64,000 nt of DNA, from NCBI GenBank assembly GCA_026129405.1, contig JAHCID010000010.1, positions 68,122 to 132,121 of the forward strand, given 5' to 3'. The translations under genes were made by a program, and so were the position numbers. Below, one piece after another: positions 15,598-20,295 of the stretch. Position 1 is the stretch's first letter. Every line of letters starts with the position of its first letter. Origin of the DNA: a bacterium (GTDB lineage: Bacteria; Desulfobacterota; Binatia; DP-6). The notes under the pieces are model-generated. The model saw only the letters and a program-made list of their open reading frames with translations. It did not search any database and had not been told where the DNA came from.

Positions 15598-15813
15598 GTG
15601 CAGGACGTCGGACGCGTGCTGATCCTGCTCGGGGTGGTCGCGATCGCGATCGGCGTCCTCCTGCTCGTCGGAGCGCGCTTCCCATGGCTCGGCCGCCTGC
15701 CGGGGGACGTCGTGGTGCAGCGGGAGCGGGGCACGTTCTACTTCCCGATCGTCACCTCGATCGTGGTGAGCCTCGTCCTGACCCTCCTCCTGAACCTGCT
15801 CTTCCGCCGCTAG
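15598..15813 (+). CDS. DUF2905 small membrane protein
   Basis: This is a 71-residue inner-membrane protein with two hydrophobic segments (VLILLGVVAIAIGVLLLVGA and VTSIVVSLVLTLLLNLLF). They are separated by PWLGRLPGDVVVQRERGTFY, the conserved core of the DUF2905 family. Function is unknown in the family. Start GTG 15598 places the first helix right at the N-terminus. It precedes the sensor kinase by less than 100 bases. Confidence 0.85.
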   Translation: MQDVGRVLILLGVVAIAIGVLLLVGARFPWLGRLPGDVVVQRERGTFYFPIVTSIVVSLVLTLLLNLLFRR

Positions 15814-15850: not shown

Positions 15851-15871
15851 TCGAAGGCGCCTTGCCTTCGA
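15851..15871 (+). other. hairpin in leader of the sensor kinase gene
   Basis: A perfect inverted repeat, TCGAAGGC / GCCTTCGA with a 5-base loop, lies about 30 bases before the kinase ATG and after a T-rich patch (GTTTTCAGGTTTT). It could be a weak terminator for the DUF2905 gene or an mRNA leader structure. No U-run follows on the plus strand. Confidence 0.45.
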
Positions 15872-15900
15872 CCCCTCGCCCCCCTATCATCGCGCGGCTC

Positions 15901-18150
15901 ATGTCGGAGTCAGCCGAGCCGGGGTCCGCCCCGGACGTGCGACGCCGCTGGCGGGAGGCGGGGATCATCCTCGCCACGGCGCTGGCCGTCATCGCGTTCG
16001 CACTGTTCGAGACCCGCCTGCCGCAGTTCGCGAGCAGCGGCTCCCTCGGCACCGACGCGATCCTCGTCCTCCTCATCAACCTGAACCTGATCCTCCTGGT
16101 CCTCCTGGTCTTCCTGGTGGGCCGGAACCTGGTGAAGCTGTTCCTCGACCGGCGCCGGCGCATCCTCGGCTCGCACCTGCGCACGCGGCTCGTGGTGGCG
16201 TTCATCGGCATCGCGCTGCTGCCCGCGACGCTGCTCTTCCTGGTCGCGCAGGTGTTCGTCTCCAACTCGATCGAGGGCTGGTTCAACGATCAGGTCGAGA
16301 GCGCGCTCGAGGGCTCGCTCGACGTCGCGCACGCCTACTACGAGGATCTCGCCGCGAACTCGCTCGGGTTCGCACGCCAGACGGCGGCGCGGCTCGCGGG
16401 CTCGAAGCTCCTCGACCCGGGCAGCCGGCAAGCGCTGCGCCAGTTCCTCGCCGAGCGCCGCGAGGAGTACCAGGTCGACCTCCTCGAGGTGTTCGCCGAC
16501 GGCCAGCCGCTCGCACGCAGCCGCCGCCCGAAGCTGCCCGAGCGCAAGATGGGCGCCGAGCCGTGGTCGCCGCTCGTGAAGCGCGCCTTCAACGGCGAGG
16601 AGGCGACGGCGGTCGACGCGGTCGGCCAGGCCGACGTCATCCGCGCCGCCGTGCCGGTCGACGAGGGCGGGCGCATCGTCGCCGTCGTGGTGGTCGACGC
16701 CTGGGTGCCGAAGAGCGTCGTCAAGCGCCGCGAGGAGATCGACCGCTCGTTCGGCGAGTACCTGCGCCTCAAGATCCAGCGCCGCCCGATCCGCACCGCC
16801 TACACCATCACGCTCGTGCTCGTGAGCCTCGTCGTCCTCTTCTCGGCGACGTGGGTGGGGCTCTGGGTCGCACGCGGCATCACGGTGCCCATCCAACGTC
16901 TCGCCGAAGGCACACGCGCCGTCGCCCAAGGCGACCTCGACCTCCGCATACCCGGCGAAGGCGACGACGAGCTCGGCACGCTGGTGAAGGCGTTCAACCA
17001 CATGACGGGCGACATCAAGGCGAGCCGCGCCGAGCTCGACGCCCGCCGCCGCGCGCTCGAGACCGTGCTCGCGAACATCGGCGCGGGCGTCATCGCGCTC
17101 GACCCCGCCGGCCGCGTGACCACGATCAACCGCGCCGGGCGCCAGCTGCTCGGACTCTCGCCGGGCGCCGTCATCGGCCGCCAGCTGACGAGCCTGCTCG
17201 AGGGCGACGTCCACCGCGCGCTGCGCGACGAGGTCGGGGCGCTGCTCGCGTCGGCGCCGACCAAGCACGAGCAGCAGCTCGCGCTCCGCCGCCCCGACGG
17301 CAGCGAGCTCGCGGTGCTGCTCACCGGCTCGCCGCTGGTCGACGAGGCGGGCCACACGCAGGGCCTGCTGCTCTTCCTCGAGGACGTGACGCACCTCCTG
17401 CGCGTCGAGCGCATGGAGGCGTGGCGCGAGGTCGCGCGCCGCATCGCGCACGAGATCAAGAACCCGCTGACGCCGATCCAGCTCGCCGCCCAGCGCCTGC
17501 GCCGGCGCTACGGTCCCACGCTGCGCGACGGCGGCGTCTTCGACGAGTGCACGCGCACCATCGTGCAGCAGGTGGAAGACCTGAAGGCGCTGGTCAACGA
17601 GTTCCAGACCTTCGCGCGCATGCCGCAGGCCGAGCACACGCCCCAGGACCTGAACCGCGTCGTCGAGGACGCGCTGGTTCTGTTCCGCGAAGGCCATCCC
17701 GCCATCGACTTCGTGTGGACGCCCGACGCCGGTCTGCCGCCGATCGAGCTCGACCGCGAGGGGCTGAAGCGCGCCATCATCAACATCCTCGACAACGCCG
17801 TCGCCGCCTGCACGGCCCGCCCCGCGACGGAGCCGGGCGAGCGCCGCCGCGTGTCGCTCCAGACCACGTACGATGCCGGGCTCGGCATCGCGCGGCTCGA
17901 GATCGCCGACGACGGCGTCGGCCTCTCGGCCGAGGCGCGCGCGCGCCTCTTCGAGCCCTACTACTCGACCAAGCCCGACGGCACCGGCCTCGGCCTCGCG
18001 ATCGTGCAGGCCATCGTGGCCGACCACAAGGGCTTCATCCGCGTCCGCGAGGACGCCCCGCAGGGGACCCGCTTCGTGATGGAGTTCCCGGTGCGGACCG
18101 ACCCCGCCCAGCTGGTGGCGCGTGCGCGCCATGGGGCATACGGGTCCTGA
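15901..18150 (+). CDS. NtrY-like transmembrane sensor histidine kinase
   Basis: The 749-residue product has N-terminal transmembrane helices (about residues 20-38, 50-75 and 97-115), a periplasmic region and a further helix near 300. A HAMP linker follows, then a PAS domain (ALETVLANIGAGVIALDPAG), a HisKA domain with EVARRIAHEIKNPLTPIQLA (phospho-His near residue 517), and an HATPase domain (NILDNAVAAC, DDGVGLS, GTGLGLAIV). The layout and the HEIKNPLTPIQLAAQRLRRR helix are those of NtrY. The ATG start is preferred over an upstream TTG. Fourteen bases after the stop comes the receiver-LpxC gene with its own strong ribosome site, so its output is very probably phosphotransfer to that protein. 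Confidence 0.9.
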   Translation: MSESAEPGSAPDVRRRWREAGIILATALAVIAFALFETRLPQFASSGSLGTDAILVLLINLNLILLVLLVFLVGRNLVKLFLDRRRRILGSHLRTRLVVAFIGIALLPATLLFLVAQVFVSNSIEGWFNDQVESALEGSLDVAHAYYEDLAANSLGFARQTAARLAGSKLLDPGSRQALRQFLAERREEYQVDLLEVFADGQPLARSRRPKLPERKMGAEPWSPLVKRAFNGEEATAVDAVGQADVIRAAVPVDEGGRIVAVVVVDAWVPKSVVKRREEIDRSFGEYLRLKIQRRPIRTAYTITLVLVSLVVLFSATWVGLWVARGITVPIQRLAEGTRAVAQGDLDLRIPGEGDDELGTLVKAFNHMTGDIKASRAELDARRRALETVLANIGAGVIALDPAGRVTTINRAGRQLLGLSPGAVIGRQLTSLLEGDVHRALRDEVGALLASAPTKHEQQLALRRPDGSELAVLLTGSPLVDEAGHTQGLLLFLEDVTHLLRVERMEAWREVARRIAHEIKNPLTPIQLAAQRLRRRYGPTLRDGGVFDECTRTIVQQVEDLKALVNEFQTFARMPQAEHTPQDLNRVVEDALVLFREGHPAIDFVWTPDAGLPPIELDREGLKRAIINILDNAVAACTARPATEPGERRRVSLQTTYDAGLGIARLEIADDGVGLSAEARARLFEPYYSTKPDGTGLGLAIVQAIVADHKGFIRVREDAPQGTRFVMEFPVRTDPAQLVARARHGAYGS

Positions 18151-18164
18151 GGGAAGGAGAAACG

Positions 18165-19451
18165 ATGTCCGAGACGATCCTGGTGGTGGATGACGAGGCG
18201 AAGATCCGCCAGACGCTGCGCGGCGTGCTGACGGACGAGGGGTTCGACGTGGTGGAGGCCGACAACGGCCGCGCGGCGCTGGATGCGCTCGCGCACCAGG
18301 TGCCGCGCCTGGCGATCGTCGACATCTGGATGCCGGAGATGGACGGCGTCGAGCTGGTGCAGCGCATGCGCAGCCAGGTGCCCGAGCTGCCCATCATCGT
18401 CATCTCCGGCCACGGCACGATCGAGACCGCCGTGCGCGTCATCCAGCTGGGCGCGTTCGACTTCCTCGAGAAGCCGTTCCAGCTCGACGCGTTGCTGAAG
18501 GTCGTCGGCCGCGCGCTCGGCGGCCCGCTCGCCGAGGCGGCCGTCGCCGAGGTCGAGCCGCTCGCCGCCGCCAGCGAGCCCGCCGTGGCGCCGCCGCGGG
18601 CGCTGCCGCAGCGCACGATCGCCCGCAGCGTGGTGGTGAACGGCCAGGGGCTCCACTCGGGGGTCCGTACCGGCGTGATCCTCCAGCCGCTGCCCCCGGG
18701 CAGCGGCATCGTCTTCGGCGCGATCACGAGCGCCGACACGGTTCCCGCGCTCGTCGACCACGTCGACTCGACCGGCTATGCGACGACGCTCGTGCGCGGC
18801 GGCATGGTCGCGAAGACCGTCGAGCATCTGATGGCCGCGCTGCACGCGCACGGCATCACGAATCTGCTCGTGAAGATGCACGCCGAGGTGCCGATCCTCG
18901 ACGGCTCCGCCCTCGAGCTCTGCGACCTCGTCGCCGAGGGCGGTATCGTCGACCAGGACGCCACCATCGAGGAGCTCGCCGTCGACCGCCGCTACGCCGT
19001 CGGCTCCGACGACCCGAGCCAGAAGGGCATCTCCATCGAGCCTGCCGACTGCTTCGAGGTCCACTACGTCCTCGACTACCCACAGCCCGTCGGCCGTCAG
19101 GAGTACACCTTCCGCCTGACCGGTCCCGAGGCCTTCCGCGACGAGATCGCGCCGGCGCGCACGTTCGGCTTCGTGAAGGAGATCGAGACGCTCGAGGCGA
19201 TGGGTCTCGCCGCCGGCGGACGGCTCAACAACTTCATCCTGGTCGGCGACGAGGGCGTCGTGAACGCGCCGCTGCGCTTCGCCGACGAGTTCGTGCGCCA
19301 CAAGATCCTCGACGTGCTCGGCGACTTCTACCTGCTCGGCCGTCCGATCCGCGGCCGCATCTCGGCGCGCCGGACGGGCCACGGCGACAACGCCGCGCTG
19401 CTGCGGATCCTGCGCGAGCGCTTCGGCCTGCCGCCGCTGCGCGGCGCGTAG
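18165..19451 (+). CDS. lpxC: NtrX-type receiver domain fused to LpxC deacetylase
   Basis: This single 428-residue protein has two parts. Residues 1-120 are a CheY-like receiver with acidic pocket (VVDDEAK), phospho-acceptor Asp53 (VDIWMPEMDG), Ser81 (ISGHGTIETAV) and Lys103 (FDFLEKPF), closest in style to NtrX. After an Ala/Glu/Pro linker (about 120-148), residues 149-428 are UDP-3-O-acyl-GlcNAc deacetylase, the committed step of lipid A synthesis. It begins QRTIARSVVVNGQGLHSGVR. It keeps the catalytic set: Glu220-His221 (VEHLMAALHA), His379 and Asp383 (EFVRHKILDVLGD), and His406 (GHGDNAALL). AAGA/DNA-binding parts of NtrX are absent: the enzyme replaces the AAA+ and helix-turn-helix domains. 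The ATG is preceded by GGGAAGGAGAAACG. The gene pairs with the NtrY-like kinase. Confidence 0.95.
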   Translation: MSETILVVDDEAKIRQTLRGVLTDEGFDVVEADNGRAALDALAHQVPRLAIVDIWMPEMDGVELVQRMRSQVPELPIIVISGHGTIETAVRVIQLGAFDFLEKPFQLDALLKVVGRALGGPLAEAAVAEVEPLAAASEPAVAPPRALPQRTIARSVVVNGQGLHSGVRTGVILQPLPPGSGIVFGAITSADTVPALVDHVDSTGYATTLVRGGMVAKTVEHLMAALHAHGITNLLVKMHAEVPILDGSALELCDLVAEGGIVDQDATIEELAVDRRYAVGSDDPSQKGISIEPADCFEVHYVLDYPQPVGRQEYTFRLTGPEAFRDEIAPARTFGFVKEIETLEAMGLAAGGRLNNFILVGDEGVVNAPLRFADEFVRHKILDVLGDFYLLGRPIRGRISARRTGHGDNAALLRILRERFGLPPLRGA

Positions 19452-19455
19452 GCGG

Positions 19456-20295
19456 CTACGCCGGCGGCGGCACCAGCCGCCAGGCCACCACGTCGGCACG
19501 TCCCGCCGCGGCCCACACCGTGGCGTCGACGCGGCGGCGGACGGAGCCGACGCGCACGGTGATCGCGAGCGCGAAGTTGCGCGCGCGCGTCGTGCAGCGG
19601 GGGAGATCGTCGCAGGCGATCGGCACGGTCGCGCGGCGGGCGAGGATCTCGTCGGCGCGGGCGGCGTCGCCGAGCCAGGCGAGCAGCACCTCGCGCGGGG
19701 CCGTGTTCGGGTTGACGCCGGCCTCGCCGGCGACGGTGACGAACGGCCGCAGGCGCGCCAGCGTGCGCGCGTCGACGCCGCGCACGAGCCCGAGCTCGCC
19801 GACGCTGCGGAGCGGGGCGTTCGGCGGCGGCGTGCCGTCGCGGTAGGCTGCGCGCTCCGCGCCGTACGGGCGCGGGCGGTCGTCGGGATCGGTCCAGTCG
19901 GCGATCGCGTCGGCGAGCGCGCGGTCGAGCGCCAGGGCCTCGAGCAGGCGGGGCAGGGCGTCGGGTTCGGCGGTGCCGAGATCGAGGCGGCGGGCCTCGT
20001 CCTCGACGATGACCTCGACGCGGCCGCCGCCGAGTTCCTGCGGCGCGATCGGCTGCGCCCACGGCGCGTGGACGTCGTCGGGCTGGTCGAGCGCCGTCCA
20101 GTCCGCGAGCAGGGCGGCGGCGGTGGCGGCGGCCGAGCGCGCGAGGGCGTCGGCCTGGAGCGTCGCCAGCGCGGCACGCGTGCGGCGCTCGGCGCGCAGC
20201 GTGCCGGCGAGGACGCCGAGCGCGACCACGACCAGCGCCGCGAGCGCCGCCGTGACGGCGACCAGCGCGGCGCCGCGCTCAGCCGGGCGGGACAC
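19456..20295 (-). CDS. gspK: type II secretion minor pseudopilin GspK
   Basis: The 279-residue product is GspK, the large pseudopilin at the tip of the type II pseudopilus. The prepilin-like N-terminus (MSRPAERGAALVAVTAALAA) lacks Glu at position +5 of the mature chain, as is usual for GspK. It then has EARRLDLGTAEPD, WTDPDDRPRPYGAERAAY and GVNPNTAPREVLLAWLG, which are family motifs. It is the last gene of the operon and overlaps gspI. It converges with lpxC with only 4 bases between stops. Confidence 0.9.
   Translation of the reverse strand: MSRPAERGAALVAVTAALAALVVVALGVLAGTLRAERRTRAALATLQADALARSAAATAAALLADWTALDQPDDVHAPWAQPIAPQELGGGRVEVIVEDEARRLDLGTAEPDALPRLLEALALDRALADAIADWTDPDDRPRPYGAERAAYRDGTPPPNAPLRSVGELGLVRGVDARTLARLRPFVTVAGEAGVNPNTAPREVLLAWLGDAARADEILARRATVPIACDDLPRCTTRARNFALAITVRVGSVRRRVDATVWAAAGRADVVAWRLVPPPA

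Follow-up and report, generated by a model that had tools for sequence, protein, structure and literature searches.

A receiver-LpxC fusion encoded behind an NtrY-like kinase in Binatia suggests direct phospho-control of lipid A synthesis

The gene that follows an NtrY-like sensor kinase would be expected to encode the response regulator NtrX, and the question raised by a stretch of a Binatia (DP-6) genome is what such a kinase acts on when the next gene encodes LpxC. The stretch, referred to below as the window, comprises 64,000 nucleotides of contig JAHCID010000010.1 [assembly GCA_026129405.1; positions 68,122 to 132,121, forward strand]. LpxC is an essential enzyme that catalyses the committed step towards the lipid A of the outer membrane; it is rate-setting for this pathway and a target of antibiotics. 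An initial annotation of the window had described, at 15901-19451, an NtrY-like kinase gene followed by a gene in which an NtrX-style receiver domain (REC) is joined to LpxC. These coordinates proved exact, the kinase gene lying at 15901-18150 and the fused gene at 18165-19451. Comparison across genomes suggests that the regulator of NtrY has likely become LpxC itself, and that the two genes form a unit in which the lipid A enzyme would be under direct phospho-control. The main features of the unit are as follows.

15901..18150, + strand: NtrY-like sensor histidine kinase, with NtrY_N membrane/sensor region, HAMP, PAS, HisKA (HEIKNP box) and HATPase_c (Pfam)
18165..19451, + strand: REC-LpxC fusion protein of 428 aa, the only LpxC of the genome
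18177..18506, + strand: receiver domain of NtrX type, residues 5-114 (Pfam Response_reg, NCBIfam and PDB chain matches)
18321..18323, + strand: codon of the phospho-acceptor Asp53, invariant in 129/129 sequences from the class
18519..18608, + strand: flexible Ala/Pro-rich linker, residues 119-148, unconserved, with 122-138 predicted to be disordered
18609..19412, + strand: complete LpxC domain, residues 149-416, with zinc and catalytic residues
19413..19448, + strand: short C-terminal tail, 22 residues after the catalytic His406 (median in unfused LpxC 43.5)

The reading frame of the fusion runs from ATG 18165 to TAG 19449-19451 uninterrupted by stops. The receiver is matched by Pfam Response_reg over residues 5-114 (2e-32), and its top NCBIfam response-regulator model is NtrX (NF051870, residues 4-119; 132 bits versus 105 for NtrC). 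The closest PDB receiver chains are 4d6x and 5m7n, which we take to be Brucella NtrX. The active-site set D9, D10, D53, S81 and K103 is intact. The LpxC part, residues 149-416, covers profile positions 1-266 of the 268 in PF03331 (1.9e-80) and scores 223.6 bits with TIGR00325, above the cut-off of 187.25. Glu220/His221, His379, Asp383, Asp387, Thr333 and His406 are all present, corresponding in that order to E78/H79, H238, D242, D246, T191 and H265 of E. coli LpxC. A Pfam scan of the fusion protein found only REC and LpxC, with neither an AAA+ domain nor a helix-turn-helix (HTH), and the protein is not filed as NtrX because it lacks AAA+ and the C-terminal HTH. In the AlphaFold2 model (mean pLDDT, the predicted local distance difference test, 89.8; pTM, the predicted template modelling score, 0.81), two well-folded domains are joined by a linker disordered at residues 122-138, and Foldseek matches the LpxC part to LpxC of Aquifex and Pseudomonas (TMt 0.94 and 0.90, with values of up to 0.95; 0.94 to 1yh8). 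The pTM exceeds what two fully independent domains would be expected to give, though nothing is concluded from it about their orientation. These results bear out the initial annotation, which had described Asp53, Ser81 and Lys103 as intact, LpxC as complete with all catalytic and zinc residues and the AAA+ and DNA-binding parts as absent, and had proposed the structure prediction of both domains. The domain set of the window kinase is also complete for NtrY (NtrY_N, HAMP, PAS, HisKA, HATPase_c), its NtrY_N region scoring 38.7 bits against a Pfam cut-off of 23.2.

The arrangement is characteristic of the class, which has been little studied. The sample comprised 148 genomes from 17 families, from which 139 loci representing 129 distinct proteins and all 17 families were extracted. 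A single match across both domains was found in 133 of the 148 genomes; the other 15 gave a partial LpxC match or none, and in those checked the gene or the kinase runs off the contig. In all 136 loci with enough upstream sequence (3 loci with ≤130 bp were left out of this count), the gene immediately 5′ of the fusion encodes an NtrY-like kinase in the same orientation, at a distance of about -29 to 159 bp; for one locus the position of the kinase stop could not be assigned. Asp9, Asp10, Asp53, Phe100 and Lys103 of the receiver are invariant in 129/129 class proteins, and the LpxC catalytic residues in every complete one. The kinase H-box reads HE[IV][KR]NP in 123 of 126 class kinases, HEIKNP being the form in the window. 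Conservation is 0.69 for the receiver and 0.68 for the LpxC part, and 0.25 for the linker, which varies from 29 to 48 residues in length.

Position 81 of the receiver is Ser in 117 class proteins and Cys in 12. The latter (L177, L180, L199, L200, L205, L210, L214, L217, L224, L226, L231 and L238) are all 12 members of family f13 and retain Asp53 and Lys103; a redox-sensitive variant of the receiver is possible. One class genome only, G129, has a second, unfused LpxC match (contig C171, 1559-2365; 38% identity, 320-residue frame), which may be contamination.

If the kinase acts on the fused protein, the source genome might be expected to lack both a second LpxC and a separate NtrX. The assembly (5.63 Mb, 15 contigs, 100% complete) contains exactly one LpxC, the fused one, together with one copy each of lpxK and lpxB, so that lipid A should be made with the fused enzyme. 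The curated NtrX cut-off (600 bits) was passed by none of the 148 class genomes, but it is too strict, as a Rokubacterial NtrX adjoining NtrY scores 524, and rival models were therefore compared. The closest match to the NtrX model in the source genome scores 451 bits with NtrC, 450 with AtoC and 418 with NtrX, and is not considered to be NtrX because the other two models score higher. NtrC-family regulators are abundant in the class genomes. The second lpxC plus ntrX that the initial annotation had named as a possible objection were thus looked for in the source genome and neither was found, the top NtrX candidate fitting NtrC better.

Mapping of REC-LpxC proteins and their neighbouring kinases, as had also been proposed, showed the pair to be class-wide, and named fusions occur in Deltaproteobacteria, Acidobacteriota, Nitrospirota and Desulfopila/Desulfoprunum. 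Beyond the class, fused genes often have no adjoining kinase. However, exactly one NtrY was found in each of 25 fused-LpxC genomes searched there, and NtrX was downstream of the unlinked NtrY in 0 of 20 extracted loci. Unlinked pairs still keep the phosphosite, with Lys103 in 34/34 and Asp53 in 33/34 (the exception, L160, is without an aligned N-terminus). Among 13 named genomes, which are not independent samples, NtrX is beside NtrY in none of the 7 in which the fused LpxC is the sole LpxC versus 5 of the 6 with an additional LpxC match, the pattern expected had NtrX been functionally replaced by the fused receiver. Inspection by eye placed the unlinked NtrY of L288 (G275) beside waaA-like and lpxK-like open reading frames, and that of L290 (G348) beside unfused lpxC-like and lpxK-like ones; if correct, these neighbours would link the kinase itself with lipid A synthesis.

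How a regulator could have come to carry LpxC is suggested by related arrangements. In the wider phylum, LpxC of this clade is fused either to a receiver alone or to a receiver followed by a sigma-54-type AAA+ domain and lid. The latter NtrX-LpxC proteins (REC, AAA+, LpxC) are of about 700-820 residues, one of them from an uncultured Desulfomonile, and several of their genes have NtrY directly upstream. In a tree of LpxC domains (99 rows), receiver-fused and unfused forms are split by one branch with support of 100, and all receiver-fused LpxCs form one clade, probably of single origin. Unfused lpxC adjoins ntrY-ntrX in Rokubacteria, Acidobacteria, Desulfobacterales and others, the Rokubacterial order being lpxC-DUF4390-ntrY-ntrX, and this neighbourhood hints at an older link between NtrYX and lipid A. 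Examples of unfused lpxC with ntrY-ntrX from Rokubacteria, Acidobacteria and Deltaproteobacteria are L016, L036, L037, L050, L059 (DUF4390 between), L067, L076 and L166. A stepwise origin is most likely, in which lpxC beside ntrYX would have given an NtrX-LpxC fusion, and loss of AAA+ and HTH would then have produced REC-LpxC. Loss of AAA+, rather than its insertion, is assumed because it is mechanistically simpler; a tree of the receivers alone, built on so short a domain, does not resolve in which order the changes took place. A divergent REC-LpxC clade in Nitrospirota, Desulfopila and Desulfoprunum (L012, L013, L015 and L155; genomes G395-G397 and G348) looks like an accessory second LpxC, possibly transferred, because these genomes also hold another LpxC.

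In the proposed mechanism, the membrane kinase NtrY would autophosphorylate on the histidine of the HEIKNP box, from which Asp53 in the receiver part of the fusion would then be phosphorylated. The Asn in this box suggests that NtrY probably also dephosphorylates Asp53. The phospho-state of the receiver would then alter how much UDP-3-O-acyl-GlcNAc is deacetylated by the LpxC part. The likeliest mode, by analogy with CheB, is that the receiver docks on the catalytic domain via the flexible linker and phosphorylation frees or blocks LpxC, a switch of this type being tolerant of a linker that is long and unconserved. A reasonable first guess is that NtrY restrains LpxC, because loss of NtrYX raises lpxC mRNA and lipopolysaccharide (LPS) in Rhodobacter sphaeroides. 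We infer the phosphotransfer, its molecular consequence, the sign of that consequence and the signal from sequence comparison. Direct phospho-control is favoured because the kinase and the fusion adjoin in 136/136 loci, the phosphosite is invariant in 129/129 proteins and no NtrX is beside NtrY in the genomes examined where the fused LpxC is the sole one; the same points lend comparative support to the initial annotation, which had proposed it, and a presumed envelope sensor probably controls LpxC directly and not via gene expression. The fuller account, that this is a class-fixed response regulator of single origin, through which the kinase directly phosphorylates the committed lipid A enzyme, and that NtrX collapsed stepwise onto lpxC, replacing the alphaproteobacterial transcriptional route, is on balance more likely than not.

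Several observations weigh against parts of this account. The variable and unconserved linker argues against rigid coupling of the two domains. FtsH and a LapB-like protein are still encoded, and standard control of LpxC may therefore operate. The genes for NtrY and REC-LpxC lie apart in several lineages, where the pairing is read from their co-occurrence. The LpxC tree (midpoint rooting) places NtrX-LpxC proteins within the REC-LpxC ones, and by itself does not settle whether AAA+ was lost or inserted.

The presence of FtsH, in two copies, and of the LapB-like protein raises the possibility that the output of the system is, in addition or even primarily, proteolysis of the fused LpxC. The receiver would then set the amount of LpxC, phosphorylation exposing the protein to, or hiding it from, FtsH, assisted by the LapB-like adaptor, or a different protease, and the N-terminal receiver would stand in for the degron that enterobacterial LpxC carries at its C-terminus. 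In E. coli, FtsH controls LpxC via this end of the protein, and the tail beyond the catalytic His is shorter in fused LpxCs (median 17 residues, n=185) than in the unfused ones sampled (43.5, n=70). However, the difference in the tail also tracks clade membership, since the fused LpxCs are one clade, and many non-enterobacterial LpxCs are likewise without the degron. Stability control is a serious rival to docking, though doubtful overall. The region shortened in the fused LpxCs is that which serves as the degron in enterobacteria. The LapB-like protein (G000, contig C10, 59969; L277 1459-2661, - strand), encoded about 8 kb before the window, has a LapA-like N-terminus, tetratricopeptide repeats and a C-terminal Zn ribbon. 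Loss of the LapB route was considered and is not supported, as one of two Zn-ribbon matches is RadA-like and the other is this protein.

The long, flexible and unconserved linker would also suit a receiver that serves for docking or localisation, bringing LpxC to the inner membrane, where NtrY is, or dimerising it with catalysis unchanged, and NtrX-type receivers can in general dimerise. Mere docking, however, needs no Asp pocket and Lys103 kept invariant over 129 sequences, and the unlinked gene pairs retain the phosphosite too, which makes this unlikely. The same invariance counts against a receiver that acts as a phosphate sink, or survives as a passive relic, while NtrY uses another, unlinked regulator, for which the many NtrC-family regulators of these genomes could provide candidates; adjacency of kinase and fusion is kept across the class, NtrX is missing beside NtrY in the genomes examined where the fused LpxC is the sole one and the candidate in the source genome fits NtrC better, so that this is more improbable still. 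An artefact of assembly or annotation, such as a missing stop or a frameshift, has a negligible probability and is refuted by the 133 independently assembled class genomes and several other lineages that carry the fusion with residue-level conservation; a stop or frameshift between receiver and LpxC, which the initial annotation had named as a possible objection, was sought and none was found.

Further features of the locus are a possible promoter and a Shine-Dalgarno-like sequence.

15862..15890, + strand: single sigma-70-like promoter match, weak, by consensus match only (1 found versus 0.1 expected)
18152..18159, + strand: Shine-Dalgarno-like GGAAGGAG, read from the sequence inside the 14-bp intergenic gap

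The kinase frame starts at ATG 15901, with an alternative in-frame TTG at 15862, and ends with TGA at 18148-18150; the promoter match lies just 5′ of the ATG and overlaps the alternative start. A DUF2905 protein is encoded at 15685-15813, just 5′ of the kinase gene. At 19456-20295, 3′ of the fusion gene, the minus strand carries a type II secretion K-like gene.

The unit shares with NtrY-NtrX a kinase of NtrY type (NtrY_N, HAMP, PAS, HisKA, HATPase_c) and a receiver of NtrX type, but the AAA+ and DNA-binding parts are gone and the output is the LpxC enzyme, for which reason post-translational rather than transcriptional control is proposed. NtrYX restrains lpxC transcription in R. sphaeroides and Caulobacter [PMC7240162, PMC12444477]; in R. 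sphaeroides without NtrYX, lpxC mRNA is raised 8.8-fold and LPS about 2-fold, an effect on lpxC that was judged indirect [PMC7240162]. The regulator DVU2934 of Desulfovibrio vulgaris has the lpxC gene as a target and so also acts through DNA [PMC3333781]. Compared with LpxC proteins of PF03331, the fusion has the complete domain, all zinc and catalytic residues and the fold match in common, but adds an N-terminal receiver and has a shorter tail than the unfused LpxCs sampled. LpxC is also fused to another domain in LpxC-FabZ (PRK13188), though the partner there is a fatty-acid dehydratase and not a signalling domain, and the window protein scores 189.6 bits with this model against a cut-off of 465. 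CheB, a receiver joined to a methylesterase, likewise combines a receiver, a linker and a catalytic domain with a partner kinase, whereas the output here is the committed lipid A enzyme and conservation suggests the phospho-effect on catalysis.

The enzymatic outputs named in a review of two-component systems are CheB and a c-di-GMP phosphodiesterase, with LpxC not mentioned. According to a 2025 review of lipid A regulation, LpxC is controlled mainly by proteolysis and, in some bacteria, by transcription, through NtrYX and ChvGI [PMC12444477]; a text search of this review for fusions or receivers gave nothing. No description of REC-LpxC was found in the literature searched, subscription papers and automatic database entries aside. 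Enzymatic response regulators are already known; as far as can be told, LpxC as the output and this evolutionary route are new. If the proposal is correct, REC-LpxC would be a natural case of a membrane sensor exerting direct phospho-control over LpxC, and NtrYX, whose effect on lpxC was judged indirect in R. sphaeroides, would here be joined with the enzyme in one polypeptide. Because intermediates survive, from separate genes through NtrX-LpxC to REC-LpxC, the path by which an enzymatic response regulator evolved can be traced and tested.

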